From an uncultured Oscillospiraceae bacterium (GTDB taxonomy: Bacteria; Bacillota; Clostridia; Oscillospirales; Oscillospiraceae): a DNA stretch of 64,000 bases. The notes beneath the pieces are model-generated. The model saw nothing but the letters and a program-made list of their open reading frames with translations, searched no databases and had not been told where the DNA came from. The stretch spans positions 1 to 64,000 of the forward strand of contig CALWON010000001.1 in NCBI GenBank assembly GCA_944383165.1, given 5' to 3'. The position numbers and the translations under genes were made by a program. This document shows positions 44,916-53,295 of the stretch, piece by piece. Every line of letters begins with the position of its first letter. Position 1 is the first letter of the stretch.

Positions 44916-45344
44916 TTAGCCCTTTTTTGTAAAATGTTGGATGGCTTTCCGATACCCTTCAAACCCAAGACCAATGAAAGAAGTTTCACATGCCATACCA
45001 GCATAAGAAACTTGGCGGAATGGCTCACGTTGTCTGACATCCGAGAGATGTACCTCCACACAGGGCAGTGAAACTGCCTTCAAGGCATCTAAAATTGCAA
45101 TACTGGTGTGGGTATAGGCAGCCGGGTTGATAATAATACCATCCATTTTGCCATATGCCCACTGGATTTTGTCCACAATATCACCTTCGTGATTGGACTG
45201 AAATACTTCCACCTGGATTCCACATTCTACAGCAGCATGGTGGATAAATCCTTCCAAATCAGCATAGGTCTGACTGCCATAAATGTCTGGTTCACGGATA
45301 CCTAACATATTTAAGTTAGGACCATTAATGACAAGAAGTTTCAT
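44916..45344 (-). CDS. aroQ: 3-dehydroquinate dehydratase, type II
   Basis: 142 residues. It converts 3-dehydroquinate to 3-dehydroshikimate. The N-terminal MKLLVINGPNLNMLGIREPD with the catalytic Tyr region (IYGSQTYADLE), INPAAYTHTSIAI and VEVHLSDVRQREPFR with the His are all type II signatures. It is the last gene of the operon and overlaps the end of aroE/K by 4 bases (ATGA). Confidence 0.97.
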   Translation of the reverse strand: MKLLVINGPNLNMLGIREPDIYGSQTYADLEGFIHHAAVECGIQVEVFQSNHEGDIVDKIQWAYGKMDGIIINPAAYTHTSIAILDALKAVSLPCVEVHLSDVRQREPFRQVSYAGMACETSFIGLGFEGYRKAIQHFTKKG

Positions 45345-46570
45345 GGATGGAGCCTCCCAACAATTTTGGCAGCCACATAGAGTGGCTTGGTGTTGTTCTC
45401 TATGGTGAGCTGTGCCAGGGACTCATAGAGGGGGGCACGCTGGGCATACAGCTTTTCCAAAGGGACAGACTGGGAGATGGGGCGGTCTTCTGTAGCGAGC
45501 TGTGAAAGGTCACGTTTTAGATAGACTACAAAGGAATTTTGCAAAATAGGGTCGTGGTTTTCTGGTTTTGTTACAATGCCACCACCGCAGGCAATAATCT
45601 GCCCAGAACGTTTGGCAATGTCACAAAGCACCTGATGTTCGTATTCACGAAATGCTTCTTCGCCTTTTTGTTCAAAAATTTCAGGAATGGAACAGCCACA
45701 CATTTCCTCTATTTTTTTGTCTAAATCCACAAAGGGACGGTGGAGAAAGTCAGCTACCGCCTCGCCCACCGCACTTTTTCCACAGCCAGGCATTCCAATC
45801 AGAATAATATTTTTGGTTTCCCATTCGATGAGACGTGTAATTTCATCAATTCTCTGGGGAGGATAGGCAACATTTAAAAAACGCTCAGAAGCAGCTTTGG
45901 CCTGTGCAACCAACATGGGCAGCCCATTGATATAGGGAATCCCCATTTTTTTTGCATCCAGTAAAAGTTGTGTGGCAGCAGGGTTGTAGATGATGTCAAT
46001 AACCCCTTCACAGGCGGGGAATTGGGCCAGACAAATGGGGGCAACGCCTACATTTGGGTACATACCCACTGGTGTTGTGTTCACAATCACCTGTGCGTCG
46101 GCATGTAGATGTAAATTTTCATAGTTGTCTTTTCCGGTACGGGAAATCACCACAATTTCTCCTGCCTGTAAATCGGTCAATACCGTTTTTACGGTGAGGG
46201 AAGAGCCACCACTGCCCAGAATCAACACTTTTTTTCCTGCCACAGAAATCTGGGATTTTTGTACCAGATACAAAAATCCATCATAATCTGTGTTGTCTCC
46301 ATATAGGGAGCCATCTGGACGGCGAAGGATGGTGTTGACACTGCCAATACGTTCTGCAATGGGGGAGAGCTGGGTACAGTAGGGAATGACTGTTTTTTTG
46401 TAGGGGACCGTTACATTGATGCCTTGAAAAGTGCCATTGGATAGAAAATTGCCTACTTCATCTGGTGGGAGAGGGATGAGCTGATAGTTGGGGTTGTCCA
46501 ACAGGCGGTGGATGAGAGGGGAAAAACTGTGAGACAGTTTTTCTCCCAGCAGTCCATAGCTTACATTCAT
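45341..46570 (-). CDS. Fused shikimate dehydrogenase / shikimate kinase
   Basis: 409 residues from ATG 46570, with GAGGTG 6 bases upstream. Residues about 1-245 are AroE (EKLSHSFSPLIHRLLD, GINVTVPYKKTVIP with the catalytic Lys, LILGSGGSSLTVKTVL, VGMYPN, NGLPMLVAQA). Residues about 250-409 are AroK (NIILIGMPGCGKSAVGEAVA Walker A, PFVDLDKKIEE, ACGGGIVTK). It carries out reduction of 3-dehydroshikimate and phosphorylation of shikimate in one polypeptide. The two halves are joined by the short linker RIDEITRLIEWETK. Confidence 0.95.
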   Translation of the reverse strand: MNVSYGLLGEKLSHSFSPLIHRLLDNPNYQLIPLPPDEVGNFLSNGTFQGINVTVPYKKTVIPYCTQLSPIAERIGSVNTILRRPDGSLYGDNTDYDGFLYLVQKSQISVAGKKVLILGSGGSSLTVKTVLTDLQAGEIVVISRTGKDNYENLHLHADAQVIVNTTPVGMYPNVGVAPICLAQFPACEGVIDIIYNPAATQLLLDAKKMGIPYINGLPMLVAQAKAASERFLNVAYPPQRIDEITRLIEWETKNIILIGMPGCGKSAVGEAVADFLHRPFVDLDKKIEEMCGCSIPEIFEQKGEEAFREYEHQVLCDIAKRSGQIIACGGGIVTKPENHDPILQNSFVVYLKRDLSQLATEDRPISQSVPLEKLYAQRAPLYESLAQLTIENNTKPLYVAAKIVGRLHP

Positions 46571-46586
46571 TGTAATCACCTCAAAA

Positions 46587-47738
46587 TTAACAAATCATCT
46601 CACTATAGCTGCCCAAATATCTGAAGTGTTCACTTTCTGCCTCTAAATCTCGGAACAAAGCCTGCAATTCTGGAGCATAGACAGGGCATTCCAAATCAAA
46701 GTAGAAACGGAATTCAAACTCCTGATCAGGAATGGGACGGCTCTCCAATTTGCGCAGGTTGATGCCAAGAACATAGAATTTGGAGAGAATGTGGTAGAGG
46801 GCACCAGGCTTATGCGGCAGGGTCATCATGAGGGAAGTGCGGTCTGCGCCTGGATAGATTTCGGGTTGCTTGGAAATACAGATGAATCGGGTGTAGTTGT
46901 TGTCCTGATCCTGTACATTTGCTTCCAAAATATTCAGACCATACAGTTCACCACAGAAGTGGGAAGAAAGAGCAGCCAGATCGGTGCGGTCAGACTCAGC
47001 CACCATGCGGGCAGCCACAGCAGTGTTTTCTACAACTGTAATTTTAACATCTTTTAATCCAGATAGATAGTAGGAACTTTGTCTCAAAGCCTGCTCATGA
47101 GAATAAATTTCACGGATGTCTTCTTTTTTCACACCGTGGTGTGCCAGAAGATTGTGGTTTACTTTCAAACGGGCAGAACGTACAATATAAAAATTGTGCT
47201 TTGCCATCAGGTCATAAATCACATTTACAGAACCAGCGGAGCTGTTTTCCACAGGAAGTACACCGTATTGACACATACCCGTTTCTACTGCACGAAATAC
47301 ATGCTCAAAGGTGCTGAAATACAGGATATTTGGGGACTTGAACATGCTGTCGCAGGCAATCTGGGAATAGGCACCCTCAATGCCCTGACAGGCCACTGAG
47401 GCACGTTGTGGAAACAGGTTTTGTGTGTTGGTCACAGCCTGAGAAATGACATCCCAAATAGGCGATGGGGTCTGGTTACAAAAATTTTGATAGGAGCGAC
47501 CAGCCGCAAAAATGCTGCGGTAAACAGATTGAACGTAGTCAGAAAATTCATCCCCAGCCTGCTGAGCCACACGGGAAAGAAGGGCGCGTTCACGCCCAGC
47601 ATCTAAGGTGGGCATCTGGTGTGCTTTTTTAAAGGCAGCAATATCTTTTGATACCCCCATACGCTCTACAAACAGGTCAACCATCTGCTTGTCAATGGAG
47701 TCAATGTGTTCACGCAGGCGATTTAGTTCTTCATTCAT
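46587..47738 (-). CDS. pheA: Chorismate mutase / prephenate dehydratase
   Basis: 383 residues. An AroQ-type chorismate mutase domain is at about 1-90 (LNRLREHIDSIDKQMVDLFV, RMGVSKDIAAFK). The prephenate dehydratase domain is at about 110-290 (VACQGIEGAYSQIACDSMF, GVLPVENSSAGSVN, DLAALSSHFCGELYGL). A C-terminal ACT domain (SLMMTLPHKPGALYHILSKF, LRKLESRPIPDQEFEFRFY) contains the ESRP motif that binds phenylalanine. It makes phenylpyruvate and is probably feedback-inhibited by Phe. Confidence 0.96.
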   Translation of the reverse strand: MNEELNRLREHIDSIDKQMVDLFVERMGVSKDIAAFKKAHQMPTLDAGRERALLSRVAQQAGDEFSDYVQSVYRSIFAAGRSYQNFCNQTPSPIWDVISQAVTNTQNLFPQRASVACQGIEGAYSQIACDSMFKSPNILYFSTFEHVFRAVETGMCQYGVLPVENSSAGSVNVIYDLMAKHNFYIVRSARLKVNHNLLAHHGVKKEDIREIYSHEQALRQSSYYLSGLKDVKITVVENTAVAARMVAESDRTDLAALSSHFCGELYGLNILEANVQDQDNNYTRFICISKQPEIYPGADRTSLMMTLPHKPGALYHILSKFYVLGINLRKLESRPIPDQEFEFRFYFDLECPVYAPELQALFRDLEAESEHFRYLGSYSEMIC

Positions 47739-47756: not shown

Positions 47757-48863
47757 TCAATTTGTTTTGTTGATTTGGTCTGTATTGCGGTCAAGCAGGG
47801 CATCCAGCAGCACAATGGCCACAGCTGCTTCTACCACAGGAACTGCACGAGGCACAATACAGGGGTCGTGACGTCCCACAATATTCAATGGAATGTTCTT
47901 TTGTTGGGACAGGCTGATGCTCTGTTGTTCTTTGGAAATAGATGGGGTTGGCTTAAAAGCTGCACGCAACAGAAGGGGCATTCCATTGGAAATTCCACCC
48001 AAAATACCGCCACTGTGATTGGTGCGGGTGCGAACTGTAGAACCGTCCAGATAGAATGGGTCGTTGTTTTGAGAACCAAACAATGTGGCACTTTCAAAGC
48101 CTGCCCCAAACTCTACACCCTTTACCGCTGGAATAGAAAACAGCATAGAGGCAAGGCGGCTTTCCAAGCCTTCAAACATGGGATTTCCAAGCCCCACAGG
48201 TAGCCCCATTGCCATACACTCTACCACGCCGCCCACAGAATCCCCTTGATTGCGGGCAGTCTCAATGACAGCCTTCATGTCAGTTCCTGTTTTTTCGTCC
48301 ATGACAGGGAAAGAGGATGATTTAAGTTGTGCAAAGGTATCTTCAGTTTCTCCCAGAGGAGAAAAGGGGGTATCAAACACAGAACCAACAGAGGCGATGT
48401 GTGCCCCGATTTCGATTCCATAGCGGGACAGAATTTGCAGACAAATACCACCTGCAATACACAGTGGAGCAGTCAATCTGCCGGAAAAATGACCGCCACC
48501 AGCTACATCCTGATAGCCTCTATATTTCATGTGAGCAGTGTAATCTGCATGGGCAGGTCTGGGACAGTCCTTTAATTTGGAGTAATCCTGAGAGCGTGTA
48601 TTTGTGTTGTGAATCATTGCGGTCAGTGGTGCCCCACAGGTAATATCATTCACCATACCACACAAAAACTCAGGGAAGTCAGCCTCTTTACGAGGGGTGG
48701 AGAAAGAGCTGTTGCCGGGGGCTCGACGTTTCAGAAAGAAAGAGAGGGCATCCAAATCAATGGATTCGCCAGCAGGCAAACCATCTATGGTAACACCAAT
48801 GGCAGTAGAATGGGATTGCCCAAAAATAGAAATGTGAATGTGTTTACCCCAATAAGAAGCCAT
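47757..48863 (-). CDS. aroC: Chorismate synthase
   Basis: 368 residues from ATG 48863 (MASYWGKHIHISIFGQSHST), with GGGAGGGG upstream. It converts EPSP to chorismate using reduced FMN. Signatures are GQSHSTAIGVTIDGLPAG, RPAHADYTAHMKY and VGRHDPCIVPRAVPVVEAA. The start lies about 20 bases inside the end of aroA, so coupling is likely. Confidence 0.97.
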   Translation of the reverse strand: MASYWGKHIHISIFGQSHSTAIGVTIDGLPAGESIDLDALSFFLKRRAPGNSSFSTPRKEADFPEFLCGMVNDITCGAPLTAMIHNTNTRSQDYSKLKDCPRPAHADYTAHMKYRGYQDVAGGGHFSGRLTAPLCIAGGICLQILSRYGIEIGAHIASVGSVFDTPFSPLGETEDTFAQLKSSSFPVMDEKTGTDMKAVIETARNQGDSVGGVVECMAMGLPVGLGNPMFEGLESRLASMLFSIPAVKGVEFGAGFESATLFGSQNNDPFYLDGSTVRTRTNHSGGILGGISNGMPLLLRAAFKPTPSISKEQQSISLSQQKNIPLNIVGRHDPCIVPRAVPVVEAAVAIVLLDALLDRNTDQINKTN

Positions 48864-50070
48864 CCAAAACCCCTCCCAGTTGTTGATAATGTGCCCAGAA
48901 ATTTGGATAAGATTTCTTGACACAGTCTGCCCCTGTTAAGGTAATGGGCTGTTGGCATACTGTAGCAGCAATGGCAGCCATCATAGCAATCCGGTGGTCA
49001 TTGCAACAATCTATGGTGACACCACCAGAAAAATGACTGACACCTTGAATGGTCAACGAATCTGTCTGTTCCTCTACATGCCCACCAAGAGCATTTAAAG
49101 TAATCGCAACGGTATGGAGACGGTCACTTTCTTTCATGCGCAATCTGGCTGCATTGACAAGATGGGTGGTACCGGAGCGCAATGCAGCCATCAGTGCCAG
49201 AGGTGGAACAAGGTCGGGGCATTGGGATACATCCAGATCTACGGTGGAGTTTGGTCTTGCCAGTGTCCAATAGTGCTGTGCCACCTGTCTGTCTCCCTGT
49301 TTGGAGGTGGTATTCAGACCCTGTAAGGTCACTTGATTGTCTAAAAAATTGGCTGCATACCAGAATCCAGCCTGAGACCAATCCCCTTCTACGGTCTGAT
49401 TCTGTGCCTGATAGGTTTGATTGCCTTTGATTTTAAAATGACCAGTGGAAGATTCCTCAATCTCAATCCCAAAGGTAGAAAGGGTGTCCAAGGTCAAATC
49501 TACATAGCCACGGGACTCCAATGCACTGGTCAAAATCAGTTCAGAATCTCCATCCAACAGGGGAAGCGCATACAAAAGACCAGTGACAAATTGACTGGAT
49601 ACATCCCCAGGCAGCGAGTAGGAACCAGAGGTTAATTGCCCCTGTAGTGTAAGTATGTCCTGTTCCTGCTGCCACAAGATTCCCTGGTTTTCAAATAGGG
49701 TTTGATAGGGGGTCTGTGGACGTTTCATCAACCGTCCACGCCCTGTAAAGGTACCACCACCGCACAGAGCCAGTGCAATGGGAATGAAAAAACGCAGCGT
49801 GGAACCAGATTCCCCACAGTCAAAGTGCGGTTTGGAAGTGTAGCTTTGATGGGGAGACAGTGTGACATAGTCAGAACCCTGTTGGAATGGAATGCCCATA
49901 GCACGCAAACAGGAGAGAGTAGCAGAAATGTCCTCAGAAAAAGACAAATTGGAAATGGTACAGATTTTTTGAGACAACCCTGCTGCTAAAAGAAGACGGT
50001 GCGCCTGACTTTTGCTGGGTGGGATGGTAAGAGTACCAGACAATTTGTGGGGATGGATGGTCAAATCCAA
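48844..50070 (-). CDS. aroA: 3-phosphoshikimate 1-carboxyvinyltransferase (EPSP synthase)
   Basis: 408 residues from TTG 50070, which has AGGAGG 8 bases upstream. GTG 50079 overlaps the aroB stop (GTGA) but has no room for a ribosome-binding site. Motifs: PPSKSQAHRLLLAAGLS, CGESGSTLRFFIPIALALCG (the PEP/glyphosate region), GDVSSQFVTGLLYAL, RMKESDRLHTVA and CNDHRIAMMAAIA. The motif spacing does not let me assign a glyphosate-sensitivity class with confidence. Confidence 0.95.
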   Translation of the reverse strand: MDLTIHPHKLSGTLTIPPSKSQAHRLLLAAGLSQKICTISNLSFSEDISATLSCLRAMGIPFQQGSDYVTLSPHQSYTSKPHFDCGESGSTLRFFIPIALALCGGGTFTGRGRLMKRPQTPYQTLFENQGILWQQEQDILTLQGQLTSGSYSLPGDVSSQFVTGLLYALPLLDGDSELILTSALESRGYVDLTLDTLSTFGIEIEESSTGHFKIKGNQTYQAQNQTVEGDWSQAGFWYAANFLDNQVTLQGLNTTSKQGDRQVAQHYWTLARPNSTVDLDVSQCPDLVPPLALMAALRSGTTHLVNAARLRMKESDRLHTVAITLNALGGHVEEQTDSLTIQGVSHFSGGVTIDCCNDHRIAMMAAIAATVCQQPITLTGADCVKKSYPNFWAHYQQLGGVLDGFLLG

Positions 50071-50075
50071 AGGGC

Positions 50076-51158
50076 TCACCTCCTGAATGTTGGAGCCAAA
50101 AGCTCCAGAAGTTGTTCTTTTTTCATAGAGTAGGGAATTGCATGACCCAACTGCTCTAATAAAATTAAAGTAATCTGATTGCCAGAACGCTTTTTATCCA
50201 GTCCAACTGCTTCTTCTAAAATAGACCAGGAACAGGGAATTTGTGTGGGCAGATGGTACTGCTCCAAAATATAAGTGACCATCGGTTTGATTTCCTTTGG
50301 AGTAATACCCAACGCAATGCCTAAATCAATGGCACAGCACATACCCGCTGCAACCCCTTGACCGTGGGTGTAGGTCACATAGTGACCAGCCAGCTCAAAG
50401 GCGTGACCAATGGTGTGCCCAAAATTTAAGGTCATACGCAGTCCAGTATCTCGCTCATCCTGTAAAACCACCTGTCTTTTTTGGTCACAACAGGTATAAA
50501 TTACTTCCTCAATGTGAGCCATCACACCAGAACGACCGCCACACTGAGCCAAAAAAGAAAAGAAATCTGCATTTCCAATGCACCCATATTTAATCACTTC
50601 TGCCATGCCGTCGGAGAATGTGGCATCTGACAGGGTTTGCAATACATTGGGGTCGATAAATACTGATTTAGGCTGCCAGAATGCGCCAGCCAGATTTTTG
50701 CCAGCCTGTAAGTCCACCGCCACCTTGCCGCCAACAGAGGAATCTACTTGGGAGAGCAGTGTAGTGGGAATTTGAACATAGGCAACGCCACGTAAAATGG
50801 TGGCGGCTGCAAAACCTGCCAAATCCCCCACAACACCACCGCCCAACGCAATGACAGCGTCAGTGCGGGTGAGTCCAAAAGACATCATTTCTTCCCACAA
50901 TGATACCAGATGTTCTGTGGATTTGGAGGACTCTCCAGCAGGAACAACTGAGATATGGACAGCAAAGCCTGCATTTTGGAGAGATGTGTTGACCTGTGCG
51001 CCATAGAGGTCATAGACAGTCTGGTCGGTAACAACAAACAGCCGCTGTGCTTTGGGTAGCAGCTTTTTACAGTGTAAACCAACAGAAGACAGTAAGCCAC
51101 GCTCTATTTCAATCTCATAGGAGCGACCAGGCAAGTCAACCATCAATGTCTTTTTCAT
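50076..51158 (-). CDS. aroB: 3-dehydroquinate synthase
   Basis: 360 residues from ATG 51158 (MKKTLMVDLPGRSYEIEIER), with AAGGTGG upstream. It is an NAD- and metal-dependent cyclisation of DAHP. Motifs: ALGGGVVGDLAGFAAATILRG, QIPTTLLSQVDSSVGGKVAV, EVIKYGCIG, and LNFGHTIGHAFE, which carries a metal-ligand His. The ATG overlaps the tyrA stop by 4 bases. Confidence 0.97.
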   Translation of the reverse strand: MKKTLMVDLPGRSYEIEIERGLLSSVGLHCKKLLPKAQRLFVVTDQTVYDLYGAQVNTSLQNAGFAVHISVVPAGESSKSTEHLVSLWEEMMSFGLTRTDAVIALGGGVVGDLAGFAAATILRGVAYVQIPTTLLSQVDSSVGGKVAVDLQAGKNLAGAFWQPKSVFIDPNVLQTLSDATFSDGMAEVIKYGCIGNADFFSFLAQCGGRSGVMAHIEEVIYTCCDQKRQVVLQDERDTGLRMTLNFGHTIGHAFELAGHYVTYTHGQGVAAGMCCAIDLGIALGITPKEIKPMVTYILEQYHLPTQIPCSWSILEEAVGLDKKRSGNQITLILLEQLGHAIPYSMKKEQLLELLAPTFRR

Positions 51159-51988
51159 TCTGCATCCACCTTTTCTTTGCAAATTCGACCCTCAGCCAAC
51201 AGGGTACACAGCCGGTCCCCATTGCCCTGTTCCAGCGCAGTGCGATATTCCTGCAAAGCACCAATCACCTGATCCAACTCTGTCAGAAGATAGTCCCGAT
51301 TCTCCAAAAACAGGTCTGTCCACATGTGTTCATTGAGCCATGCCACTCTGGTTAAGTCCAAGTAACTGCCAGCGGAGTATCCCTTGTGCATTTGTGCACG
51401 GGGGCTTTTGACATAGGCATTGGATAGAATGTGGCACATCTGGGAGGTATAAGCAATCATCTCATCGTGATGTTCTGCTGTCGTCACAGTCAGATGGGCA
51501 AAACCGGCAGGAGCTAACATTTTTTTCACCCGATCCAGCAGCATAATGTCATCCCGATTTTGGGGGACAATGACCATAGGTGCCCCCTGAAATAGGTCTG
51601 CCTTACTGTTGGCAAAGCCAGAATATTGTGTGCCTGCCATGGGATGACCGCCTACAAATGTGAAACCATACTGTTCCGCAAGAGAAAAACCAACACGGCA
51701 AATCTCACGTTTGACACCACAACAGTCCATGACTAAAGTGGTGGGGGAGATGTAGGGGGCAATTCGTTCCAGATAATCCACAGAAATTTCTGGATAAAGG
51801 GCAATCAACAGCAAGTCACAGGTGGAAATAGTGTTTTCATCCAAATCTCCACTGAGTGTGCCTTGCAGTTTAGCAAAATCCTGCACCACACGGTTGCCAT
51901 CGTAGCCATATACCGTTGCACCGCTTTTTTCATAGGCTTTTGCAAGGGAGCCGCCAATCAGACCAAGTCCAGCTACACCAACAATCAT
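51155..51988 (-). CDS. tyrA: Prephenate dehydrogenase
   Basis: 277 residues from ATG 51988 (MIVGVAGLGLIGGSLAKAYE), with AAGGAGG upstream. A Rossmann NAD(P) site (GLGLIGGSLA) is at the N-terminus. The substrate region is FVGGHPMAGTQYSGFANS, with the catalytic His in GGHPMAG. There is no fused chorismate mutase or ACT domain; PheA supplies the mutase step. It makes 4-hydroxyphenylpyruvate for Tyr. Confidence 0.96.
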   Translation of the reverse strand: MIVGVAGLGLIGGSLAKAYEKSGATVYGYDGNRVVQDFAKLQGTLSGDLDENTISTCDLLLIALYPEISVDYLERIAPYISPTTLVMDCCGVKREICRVGFSLAEQYGFTFVGGHPMAGTQYSGFANSKADLFQGAPMVIVPQNRDDIMLLDRVKKMLAPAGFAHLTVTTAEHHDEMIAYTSQMCHILSNAYVKSPRAQMHKGYSAGSYLDLTRVAWLNEHMWTDLFLENRDYLLTELDQVIGALQEYRTALEQGNGDRLCTLLAEGRICKEKVDAE

Positions 51989-51999
51989 GGGATACCTCC

Positions 52000-53010
52000 T
52001 TACTGCTGAGGGCAAACAATGGTGCGGATTTGACGAACTGCCTCTGCCACATCTTCAAATTGTTCCGGGCGCAGAGACTGAGGACCATCACACAGGGCAC
52101 GGGCAGGGTCGTTGTGTACCTCAATAATCAGACCATCTGCTCCACAGGCAGCGGCAGCCAGTGCCATAGGCTTTACATACCGGGCTACTCCTGTGGCGTG
52201 ACTGGGGTCAACTACAACAGGAAGGTGAGTCAGTTCATGGAGCACAGTAACTGCGGACAGATCCAAGGTGTTGCGTGTGGCAGTTTCAAAGGTACGAATG
52301 CCACGCTCACAGAGAATCACATTACTATTGCCACCAGCCATTACATATTCTGCACTCATCAGCAGTTCCTTAATGGTATTGGCAAGACCACGCTTAATCA
52401 GAATGGGTTTTTGTGTTTTGCCCAGTTCCTTCAAAAGCTCAAAGTTCTGCATATTGCGTGCTCCAACCTGAATCACATCCACGTCTTCAAAAAGGGGCAA
52501 ATGGTTGGCGTTCATGATTTCTGTTACAATGGGAAGTCCAGTTTCACGCTTTGCTTCCAACAGCAAATCAATGCCATCTGCCTTCAGTCCCTGGAAGTCG
52601 TAGGGAGAAGTGCGGGGCTTGAATGCACCGCCACGCAGCATGGTAGCACCAGCAGCCTTTACACTTTTGGCAACAGTAATAATTTGCTCACGACTCTCCA
52701 CAGAGCAAGGACCAGCAATCATGGCAAAATGACCGCCGCCAATTTTTTCCTCACCGACTTCAATGATAGAATCCATAGGATGGAATTTGCGGTTACTGCT
52801 TTTGTATGGCTCAGATACTCGCTTGACGCCATCTACAATATCCAGACTGGACAACAGCTCCTCATCCAGACGGCTGGTATCACCAATGATGCCAATGATG
52901 GTGGCATAGTCACCAGAGGAAATATGGGTACGAAGATTTTGAGATTCAATCCACTGAATCAAGTCACGAATGCGAGCCTCACTGGCACTTTGTTTTAAAA
53001 TGATAACCAT
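52000..53010 (-). CDS. aroF: 3-deoxy-7-phosphoheptulonate (DAHP) synthase
   Basis: 336 residues from ATG 53010 (MVIILKQSASEARIRDLIQW), with AAAGGAC upstream. It is the first committed step, PEP + erythrose-4-phosphate to DAHP. An N-terminal ferredoxin-like regulatory domain (about 1-70) precedes the KDO8PS/DAHPS-type barrel (MIAGPCSVESREQIITVAKS, LRGGAFKPRTSPYDFQGL, GARNMQNFELL, VDPSHATG). This is the Thermotoga/Bacillus-type enzyme with N-terminal control rather than the E. coli type. It is the first structural gene of the operon, behind an attenuator. Confidence 0.96.
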   Translation of the reverse strand: MVIILKQSASEARIRDLIQWIESQNLRTHISSGDYATIIGIIGDTSRLDEELLSSLDIVDGVKRVSEPYKSSNRKFHPMDSIIEVGEEKIGGGHFAMIAGPCSVESREQIITVAKSVKAAGATMLRGGAFKPRTSPYDFQGLKADGIDLLLEAKRETGLPIVTEIMNANHLPLFEDVDVIQVGARNMQNFELLKELGKTQKPILIKRGLANTIKELLMSAEYVMAGGNSNVILCERGIRTFETATRNTLDLSAVTVLHELTHLPVVVDPSHATGVARYVKPMALAAAACGADGLIIEVHNDPARALCDGPQSLRPEQFEDVAEAVRQIRTIVCPQQ

Positions 53011-53038: not shown

Positions 53039-53092
53039 TGAATAAAAATACAAAAGAGCCTGTGGTGAAGTGCTTCTTCACCACAGGCTCTT
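53039..53092 (-). terminator. Attenuator terminator of the aromatic operon
   Basis: On the minus strand a perfect 17-bp stem (AAGAGCCTGTGGTGAAG and its complement, 5-base loop) is followed by TTTTGTATTTTTATT. It lies in the 5' leader, 21 bases after the leader-peptide stop and about 30 bases before aroF. It can end transcription before the structural genes. Confidence 0.92.
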
Positions 53093-53112
53093 AACATCCC
53101 GTATCATTCCAG

Positions 53113-53223
53113 TTACACTGGGGAGGGAAGCCGATTCTGTGCAGCAGAAAACACTTCTACCTGTTTGACACTGAAGCCAAAAAAGTAAAAGTAGCTAAAA
53201 AAGAATGCTGCAAACAGATACAT
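53113..53223 (-). CDS. Phe/Tyr-rich leader peptide of the aromatic operon
   Basis: 36 codons from ATG 53223, with GAGAGGAG 8 bases upstream. It starts MYLFAAFFFSYFYFFGFSVK; 8 of codons 4-17 are Phe and 2 are Tyr, with another Tyr at codon 2. Such enrichment is the hallmark of attenuation leader peptides. Codons 28-32 contain CACAG-N5-GCTT (53141-53128), which is complementary to the 5' arm of the terminator (AGAGC-CTGTG). A ribosome stalled at the Phe/Tyr run would leave this segment free to form an antiterminator, while one reaching the stop would cover it. The peptide itself needs no function. Confidence 0.88.
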   Translation of the reverse strand: MYLFAAFFFSYFYFFGFSVKQVEVFSAAQNRLPSPV

Positions 53224-53265
53224 AATCGGAACTCCTCTCTTTACAGGAATAAAGTCTACACCCCT

Positions 53266-53295
53266 ATGTTAGCACCAGAAAAGCCGTTCTGTCAA
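53266..53295 (-). promoter_or_regulatory. Promoter of the aromatic operon
   Basis: On the minus strand: perfect TTGACA (53295-53290), 18-base spacer, TAACAT (53271-53266). Transcription would begin about 35 bases upstream of the leader-peptide ATG. Confidence 0.7.

Follow-up and report, generated by a model that had tools for sequence, protein, structure and literature searches.

Ribosome-mediated transcription attenuation by a leader peptide rich in Phe and Tyr is the best explanation, and very probably the correct one, for the sequence in front of aroF in the window, as we call the whole stretch of 64,000 nt of Oscillospiraceae DNA that was analyzed. This reading is supported by the anatomy of the locus, by the recurrence and codon bias of similar leaders in other genomes, and by a modelled switch. 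We infer that the leader frame is translated, that uncharged tRNA stalls the ribosome on it, that the antiterminator is captured kinetically, and that the whole operon is controlled in this way.

The leader region

All the elements of the leader are found on the minus strand. A motif scan places a promoter, TTGACA-18 bp-TG-n-TAACAT with an extended -10 box, at 53266-53295. Four sites between 44500 and 55200 reach 10 of 12 matches, and among them this site alone has the TG; the scan as a whole is near chance, with 19 sites for 15.2 expected. The ribosome-binding site of the leader peptide, AGAGAGGAG, is found at 53232-53240 and is partly paired in the predicted ribosome-free fold. A frame of 36 codons follows, from the ATG at 53223 to 53113, coding for MYLFAAFFFSYFYFFGFSVKQVEVFSAAQNRLPSPV; similar peptides are found in related genomes. 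The frame has nine Phe codons, three Tyr codons and no Trp codons. Eight of the Phe and two of the Tyr are in codons 4-17 (53173-53214), the putative control codons, which also belong to the 5' side of a 1:2 hairpin. The paired bases of region 2, in codons 23-32 (53127-53158), have two possible partners, region 1 (protector) or region 3 (antiterminator). Region 3 (53066-53091) comprises the 5' arm of a terminator, its loop and the start of its 3' arm. The terminator itself (53054-53092), terminator-like by its sequence, has a 17 bp stem and a 5-base loop, and a T-rich stretch comes after it. The aroF ATG is at 53010, preceded by AGAAAGGA, about 100 nt from the leader stop codon.

The promoter, ribosome-binding site, Phe/Tyr frame and terminator claimed by the sequence-only reading were all located, and their order and distances from each other suit an attenuator. 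Upstream of the leader there is an RNase J gene, with its own terminator-like stem at 53396-53362. The leader RNA is predicted to fold more strongly than shuffled sequences (z = -7.1, none of 200 as good).

T-box leaders sense uncharged tRNA directly through RNA and have no open reading frame. An unrecognized T-box or metabolite riboswitch that overlaps the leader should be considered, as a covariance model puts a T-box just before the DAHP synthase gene in two genomes of the same order, G048 (G048:C4) and G038 (G038:C65). We find this reading barely credible for the window. The leader has no match at the gathering score among 4227 Rfam covariance models, and a relaxed search (E up to 10) gives weak matches far under gathering, none of them a T-box or an amino acid operon leader. 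In addition, there are only about 35-40 nt of inferred transcript ahead of the frame. The T-box or riboswitch reading was rejected for the window leader, and the absence of a T-box motif claimed from the sequence holds at both levels of search.

The operon and its genome

Eight genes follow the leader on the minus strand. The first is aroF, DAHP synthase (52000-53010; NCBIfam NF006421 and TIGR01361), followed by tyrA, prephenate dehydrogenase (51155-52015, the whole open frame from a TTG, best NCBIfam models under their cut-offs). Three genes identified by NCBIfam come next: aroB, 3-dehydroquinate synthase (50076-51158); aroA, 3-phosphoshikimate 1-carboxyvinyltransferase (48844-50079); and aroC, chorismate synthase (47757-48866). 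For pheA, chorismate mutase / prephenate dehydratase (46587-47738), the best models are just below or below their cut-offs. An aroE-aroK fusion (45341-46573, models under cut-offs) has an N-terminal shikimate dehydrogenase and a C-terminal shikimate kinase. The last gene is aroQ, type II 3-dehydroquinate dehydratase (44916-45344, NCBIfam). The content of a complete shikimate-Phe-Tyr operon, as had been proposed, was confirmed with NCBIfam models, with aroE and aroK fused. The control codons, Phe and Tyr, fit the end products of the operon, Phe and Tyr.

The genome of the window has 11 T-box matches. Six of the 11, among the matches listed, precede valS, ileS, ilvB, asnB, glyS and leuA. As judged from these matches, this genome employs T-boxes for other amino acid genes and not for this operon. 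No Rfam match was found for pheS inside the fetched locus. Neither trpE nor trpA has a match in this genome, whose assembly is rated 98% complete, and all 14 controls were found. Trp synthesis is therefore probably absent, so that the operon would serve Phe and Tyr: The source organism, probably auxotrophic for Trp, has a Phe/Tyr operon of its own. A search for hisG also gave no match in the genome, but one of its 14 controls, B. subtilis, was missed as well, so that the negative result carries no weight.

Proposed mechanism

RNA polymerase would start at the promoter at 53266-53295 and make the leader, and a ribosome would begin the 36-codon frame. A shortage of charged tRNA-Phe or tRNA-Tyr would make the ribosome stall in codons 4-17, where it covers region 1. 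Region 2, thus freed, would pair with the emerging 5' arm and loop of the terminator to form the antiterminator, and transcription would read through into aroF-tyrA-aroB-aroA-aroC-pheA-aroEK-aroQ. When Phe and Tyr are plentiful, the ribosome would reach the end of the frame, regions 1 and 2 would pair again and the 17 bp terminator would form. As a leader and a stop precede the operon here, and similar arrangements are found before the DAHP synthase gene in many relatives, these bacteria probably detect a lack of aromatic amino acids through a stalled ribosome, in the manner of E. coli, and not through the T-box that would be expected in this group. Since the 1:2 hairpin is also predicted without translation, the default state of the window would be off; in the model, the ribosome-free default is on in group C, a different type of leader described below. 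The polymerase of B. subtilis reportedly runs ahead of the ribosome (PMC9226507).

The modelled switch in the window

With a ribosome held at codon 14, 53157-53130 is predicted to pair with 53067-53095. In this structure, codons 23-32 are bound to the 5' arm of the terminator, the loop and the start of the 3' arm; in the constrained fold, GAAGUGUUU pairs with GAAGCACUUC, followed by CACAG with CUGUG. As this pairing takes the 5' arm, the loop and the first 3'-arm bases, it could form before the terminator is complete. The segment CACAG-N5-GCTT, which the sequence-only reading had presented as the antiterminator, is indeed found at 53141-53128, but it is only a part of a longer structure. The CACAG segment is present both in the duplex and in the constrained fold, the GCTT segment in the duplex only. 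The short segment as the entire antiterminator has been replaced by the longer pairing of codons 23-32.

The switch was modelled with nascent RNA reaching 5 nt of the terminator 3' arm and a ribosome footprint of 29 nt; every pair that joins the terminator segment to the leader upstream of it was counted. In the window, the model gives 0.1 pairs without a ribosome, a mean of 17.7 with the ribosome at Phe/Tyr codons, and 0.0 with the ribosome at the last codons and the stop. The original suggestion that stalling allows an antiterminator, and that completed translation does not, is thus borne out in the model. None of 200 synonymous recodings of the window matches its switch score (mean -0.3, sd 4.1). 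Recodings still pair with the terminator (11.1 pairs stalled, 6.9 at the stop, 11.1 free): In the model, the peculiarity of the window is its switching, not pairing itself. Its duplex energy is unexceptional: 29 shuffles and 48 recodings, out of 300 each, are as good. When terminators of other groups are swapped in, none of 28 gives an equal or better duplex.

These results depend on how much of the terminator is exposed. With 8 nt of the 3' arm, the stall value of the window drops to 2.6 pairs, and only four of 15 leaders keep a mean of at least 6 pairs at Phe/Tyr codons; the exposures of 2 and 5 nt were picked after this outcome had been seen, and 5 nt was used in the controls. At equilibrium the complete transcript favors the terminator, even when a ribosome is placed at codon 14. 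Since the switch fades at 8 nt and the terminator wins at equilibrium, antitermination must be kinetic.

The distance of some 100 nt between the leader stop and the aroF start would suit a leader that works mainly on translation or mRNA stability, by reinitiation for example, and not on termination. This is very unlikely in our opinion: A strong terminator-like stem is found between these two points, and the predicted antiterminator leaves the aroF start site uninvolved.

Leaders in related genomes

The search for DAHP synthase was positive in 45 of 60 genomes, that of the window among them. In most of the 48 upstream regions of these relatives, a short frame rich in aromatic codons is found together with a terminator-like stem. 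Group A has 14 loci, including the window, with DAHP synthases at least 82% identical to that of the window, and a single leader type, present at all 14 (13 aligned, and L004). Its peptides have the pattern FAAFFYGYFYFFGF...KVKVFFAAN. In L004 a distance of about 475 nt separates the leader core from the gene, roughly 290 nt more than usual. Peptides of group B contain ...RYFSFTFFWGKACFGLAE..., while group C is formed by L040, L041 and L044. By their sequences, groups B and C look like unrelated types. A promoter-like site is found at threshold before 40 of 41 leaders in relatives and before 73 of 80 others, with a score that had no shuffle control.

Two side observations concern the gene and its surroundings. 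Two near relatives, L003 and L004/L241 (G010, G027), have about 110 and about 290 nt of additional sequence between attenuator and aroF. These stretches resemble each other in part, and it looks as though small elements had been inserted there, with the leader retained. Under a single genus label (G001-G036), leaders of unrelated types are found, and their DAHP synthases share only about 60% identity with that of the window. This suggests that the gene was replaced together with its leader within this label. An Rfam search of 20 other loci gave a single match, a TPP riboswitch on the other strand, found in L041 (436-543, minus strand) near the DAHP synthase upstream region.

The sequence-only reading had asked for an alignment of relatives with conserved Phe/Tyr codons and covarying pairs. 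The aromatic-rich leaders and terminators do recur, but covarying pairs are nearly absent, with no double compensatory changes for the 2:3 pairing in group A and one in group B. Within-group covariation has been discarded as main evidence for this reason. The 2:3 pairs are kept in 92.8% of cells in group A (35-55% when slid) and 95.8% in group B (10-54% when slid), and the 1:2 hairpin of group A in 96.1% (42-54% when slid); these structures were read off group members, which gives them an advantage over the slid controls. The pairing of group A is no better than a letter shuffle. The 2:3 strands are AAGUGYUUUUUGCUGCA with UGCGGUGAAAAACACUU in group A, and CGGUUUGGCUG with CGGCCGAACCG in group B, whose segments differ from those of group A. 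In group C the pairing spans the stop codon. In all three groups, the predicted antiterminator pairing continues through the terminator loop.

The switch model was applied to 41 leaders of relatives: 36 strict leaders (defined in the next section) plus L017, L039, L040, L041 and L044. Seven of the 48 regions are outside this set (L004, L016, L038 and L045-L048), and the start of L018 was placed six codons late. In most of the 41, the 5' arm of the terminator has a possible partner within the frame or around the stop codon. Stalling exceeds the stop state by 6.4 pairs, compared to 2.1 for synonymous recodings (Wilcoxon p 2.8e-5, leaders being treated as independent despite their kinship). Stall is over stop in 32 of 41 leaders with 2 nt exposed and in 31 with 5 nt, and under it in 7 and 6, respectively. 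There is no gain in eight of the 41 (L003, L007, L008, L009, L017, L036, L037, L043), the first four of which are in the window's own group A of 13, and five more gain at most 1.0 pair. A further set contains 80 of the other 82 strict leaders, two having been dropped. It gives an excess of 6.2 pairs, compared to 3.05 for recodings (p 3.7e-6, kinship ignored), with 64 positive and 7 negative leaders. One leader of this set that switches in the model, L063, comes from a cultured species, Angelakisella massiliensis (14.3 pairs against 0.8).

Duplex energies of the 41 leaders are only mildly better than those of shuffles, with a median z of -1.9 against shuffles and -1.3 against recodings. When terminators are swapped, nine of the 13 leaders of group B have no equal or better duplex; equal or better duplexes are found in 12-17 of 28 swaps for L010, L012 and L014, and in 17-18 of 38 for two of the three leaders of group C.

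Clostridium-type leaders (L120, L168, L164, L161, L189, L195) are long; their core resembles SWGYFYFSAGYFFCKK, and several contain a Trp codon. For the three whose model values were inspected (L120, L164, L168), stalling produces hardly any antiterminator, and the geometry or mechanism of this type may differ. Trp codons are weakly associated with trpA: Genomes with trpA provide 14 of 28 leaders with Trp codons and 14 of 52 without them (Fisher p 0.035, 80 genomes, kinship ignored).

The comparison of relatives also bears on other functions for the peptide. An aromatic-rich peptide might itself stall the ribosome in response to free Phe, Tyr or another ligand, as TnaC does in response to Trp, and the conservation of the group A peptide, including the stretch after the aromatic run, would be expected in such a case. 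Such conservation may also be explained by the RNA pairing of region 2. By eye, the different lineages share aromatic richness and no common motif, and a high aromatic pool should shut a biosynthetic operon, the opposite of the logic of TnaC. We consider arrest by the nascent chain unlikely. Even less likely is a small functional protein, with a terminator which merely sets the level of the operon. The peptide is hydrophobic and conserved in close relatives, as such a protein might be, but that of the window has no match in Pfam or NCBIfam. Across lineages the peptide sequence varies, while aromatic codons and terminator are kept, and the modelled switch is weaker, on average, after synonymous recoding. 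Attenuation by stalling at Phe/Tyr codons is the reading that we prefer.

Distribution of the leaders

In order to count these leaders, we have used a strict classifier: a frame 10-60 codons long, preceded by a ribosome-binding site; six or more Phe/Tyr within 12 codons; and a terminator-like stem before the gene. It accepts 118 of the 229 DAHP synthase upstream regions, the window being one of the 229. They are distributed as follows: 36 of 48 regions in the relatives (window included), 39 of 79 in named genomes (from the best 80 loci), and 43 of 102 in a sample of the class, among the matches listed. A mean of 0.05 regions pass in 20 dinucleotide-preserving shuffled sets (maximum 1), and one passes on the reverse strand. 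With ten other residue pairs, 0-13 regions pass. Some failing regions, group C among them, hold leader-like arrangements short of one criterion.

The 229 regions exclude L118, a partial gene, and L129, which is the window again; duplicates are kept (L156 = L039, L087 = L022), and some rows of the named and class sets may share a genome. The class set has 110 of 147 genomes with a match, among the matches listed; partial matches and, mostly, second copies were left out. The named set includes bins labelled Treponema, Planctomycetaceae, Verrucomicrobia and others. Clostridia-like DAHP synthases are found in such bins (L069, L089, L100, L111 and L127, labelled Treponema, Verrucomicrobia or Planctomycetaceae), through transfer or mis-binning, and two of these, L089 and L111, carry strict leaders.

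T-boxes are found at the same place in 17 of the 229 regions: two in relatives, two in named genomes and 13 in the class sample (11 by motif and two by covariance model). The short motif was searched in all 229 regions; of the 48 class rows where neither device had been found, 40 were also searched with the covariance model. No region has both a leader and a T-box by motif. A peptide attenuator had been considered unusual for this lineage, which does not agree with these numbers: Strict leaders outnumber T-boxes by 36 to 2, 39 to 2 and 43 to 13 in the three sets. Only in comparison with textbook accounts is the device unusual.

In a tree of 137 DAHP synthases, the label "leader" requires 30 changes, compared to a mean of 45 when shuffled; the 37 rows labelled "none" include missed leaders such as L004, and 22 "probable" leaders, outside the 118, were chosen by eye. 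Judging from this tree, leaders are found on many branches, in clusters, and do not appear to have one origin.

Comparison with known systems

Proteobacterial leaders such as pheA, pheST and trp of E. coli have an open reading frame with control codons and exclusive 1:2, 2:3 and 3:4 pairings, and are off when untranslated. The window leader would share all three features: a frame with control codons, exclusive pairings and an off state without translation. It has no match to the leaders in Rfam, and so no detectable sequence relation to them, although it would work alike. Unlike the proteobacterial attenuators, the head gene is aroF, with an entire shikimate-Phe-Tyr operon behind it, and the predicted antiterminator passes through the terminator loop. 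Since several codons separate the end of region 2 from the stop in the window, completion of translation should form the 1:2 hairpin again, and not cover region 2. Some relatives have T-boxes (RF00230) in front of DAHP synthase, and in this genome they precede six amino acid genes; the window leader has no T-box match.

A close case is the uORFC-13-1 motif in front of aroF in Acholeplasma, with a Phe-codon uORF and a terminator, proposed as an attenuator (PMC8632094). As described there, it resembles the window in having such a uORF and a terminator before a DAHP synthase gene; its 24 sequences are reported from Acholeplasma and environmental samples only (PMC8632094). Leader attenuators for His have been predicted for a hisS paralogue and hisZ in bacilli (PMC2965389), and for his operons in the B. 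cereus group, Eubacteriales/Peptostreptococcaceae and Erysipelotrichales, in 17 genomes (PMC9413887). As reported, they likewise have a leader peptide in place of a T-box, for histidine and not for aromatic amino acids. The leucine-rich ilv attenuator of S. aureus (PMC5794164) and the leader-peptide attenuation of Rli60 in Listeria (PMC5864092) are described as experimentally supported. They are the same device in Gram-positive bacteria, for branched-chain amino acids and in Bacilli. Our search of the open-access literature found no aromatic leader-peptide attenuator in Clostridia; most subscription papers were outside its scope.

With His and branched-chain attenuators of Firmicutes and the Acholeplasma aroF candidate already in print, this kind of device is itself known. 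What would be new is an aromatic peptide attenuator in Clostridia, apparently widespread, of a kind already published for other amino acids.

Significance

In these samples, peptide attenuation shifts from scattered Gram-positive cases to the commonest device detected before DAHP synthase, with 43 leaders and 13 T-boxes in the 102 regions of the class sample, among the matches listed. The peptide leader coexists in one cell with T-boxes for other amino acids. Homologous genes with a peptide, a T-box or neither offer material for studying how one sensor replaces another. The leaders also hint at small genes which Pfam and NCBIfam models do not recognize, four peptides having been tried.

In a wider sense, there is perhaps an even chance that, across Clostridia, entry into the shikimate pathway is controlled chiefly by ribosome-mediated attenuation instead of T-boxes, and that such attenuation has been rebuilt repeatedly from unrelated sequences to one design: aromatic codons, and a region 2 which invades the terminator via its loop. 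These leaders provide a natural test for the coupling of transcription and translation in Clostridia. If the proposal is true, polymerase and ribosome would be functionally coupled over the first 150-200 nt in these bacteria, unlike the runaway transcription of B. subtilis.
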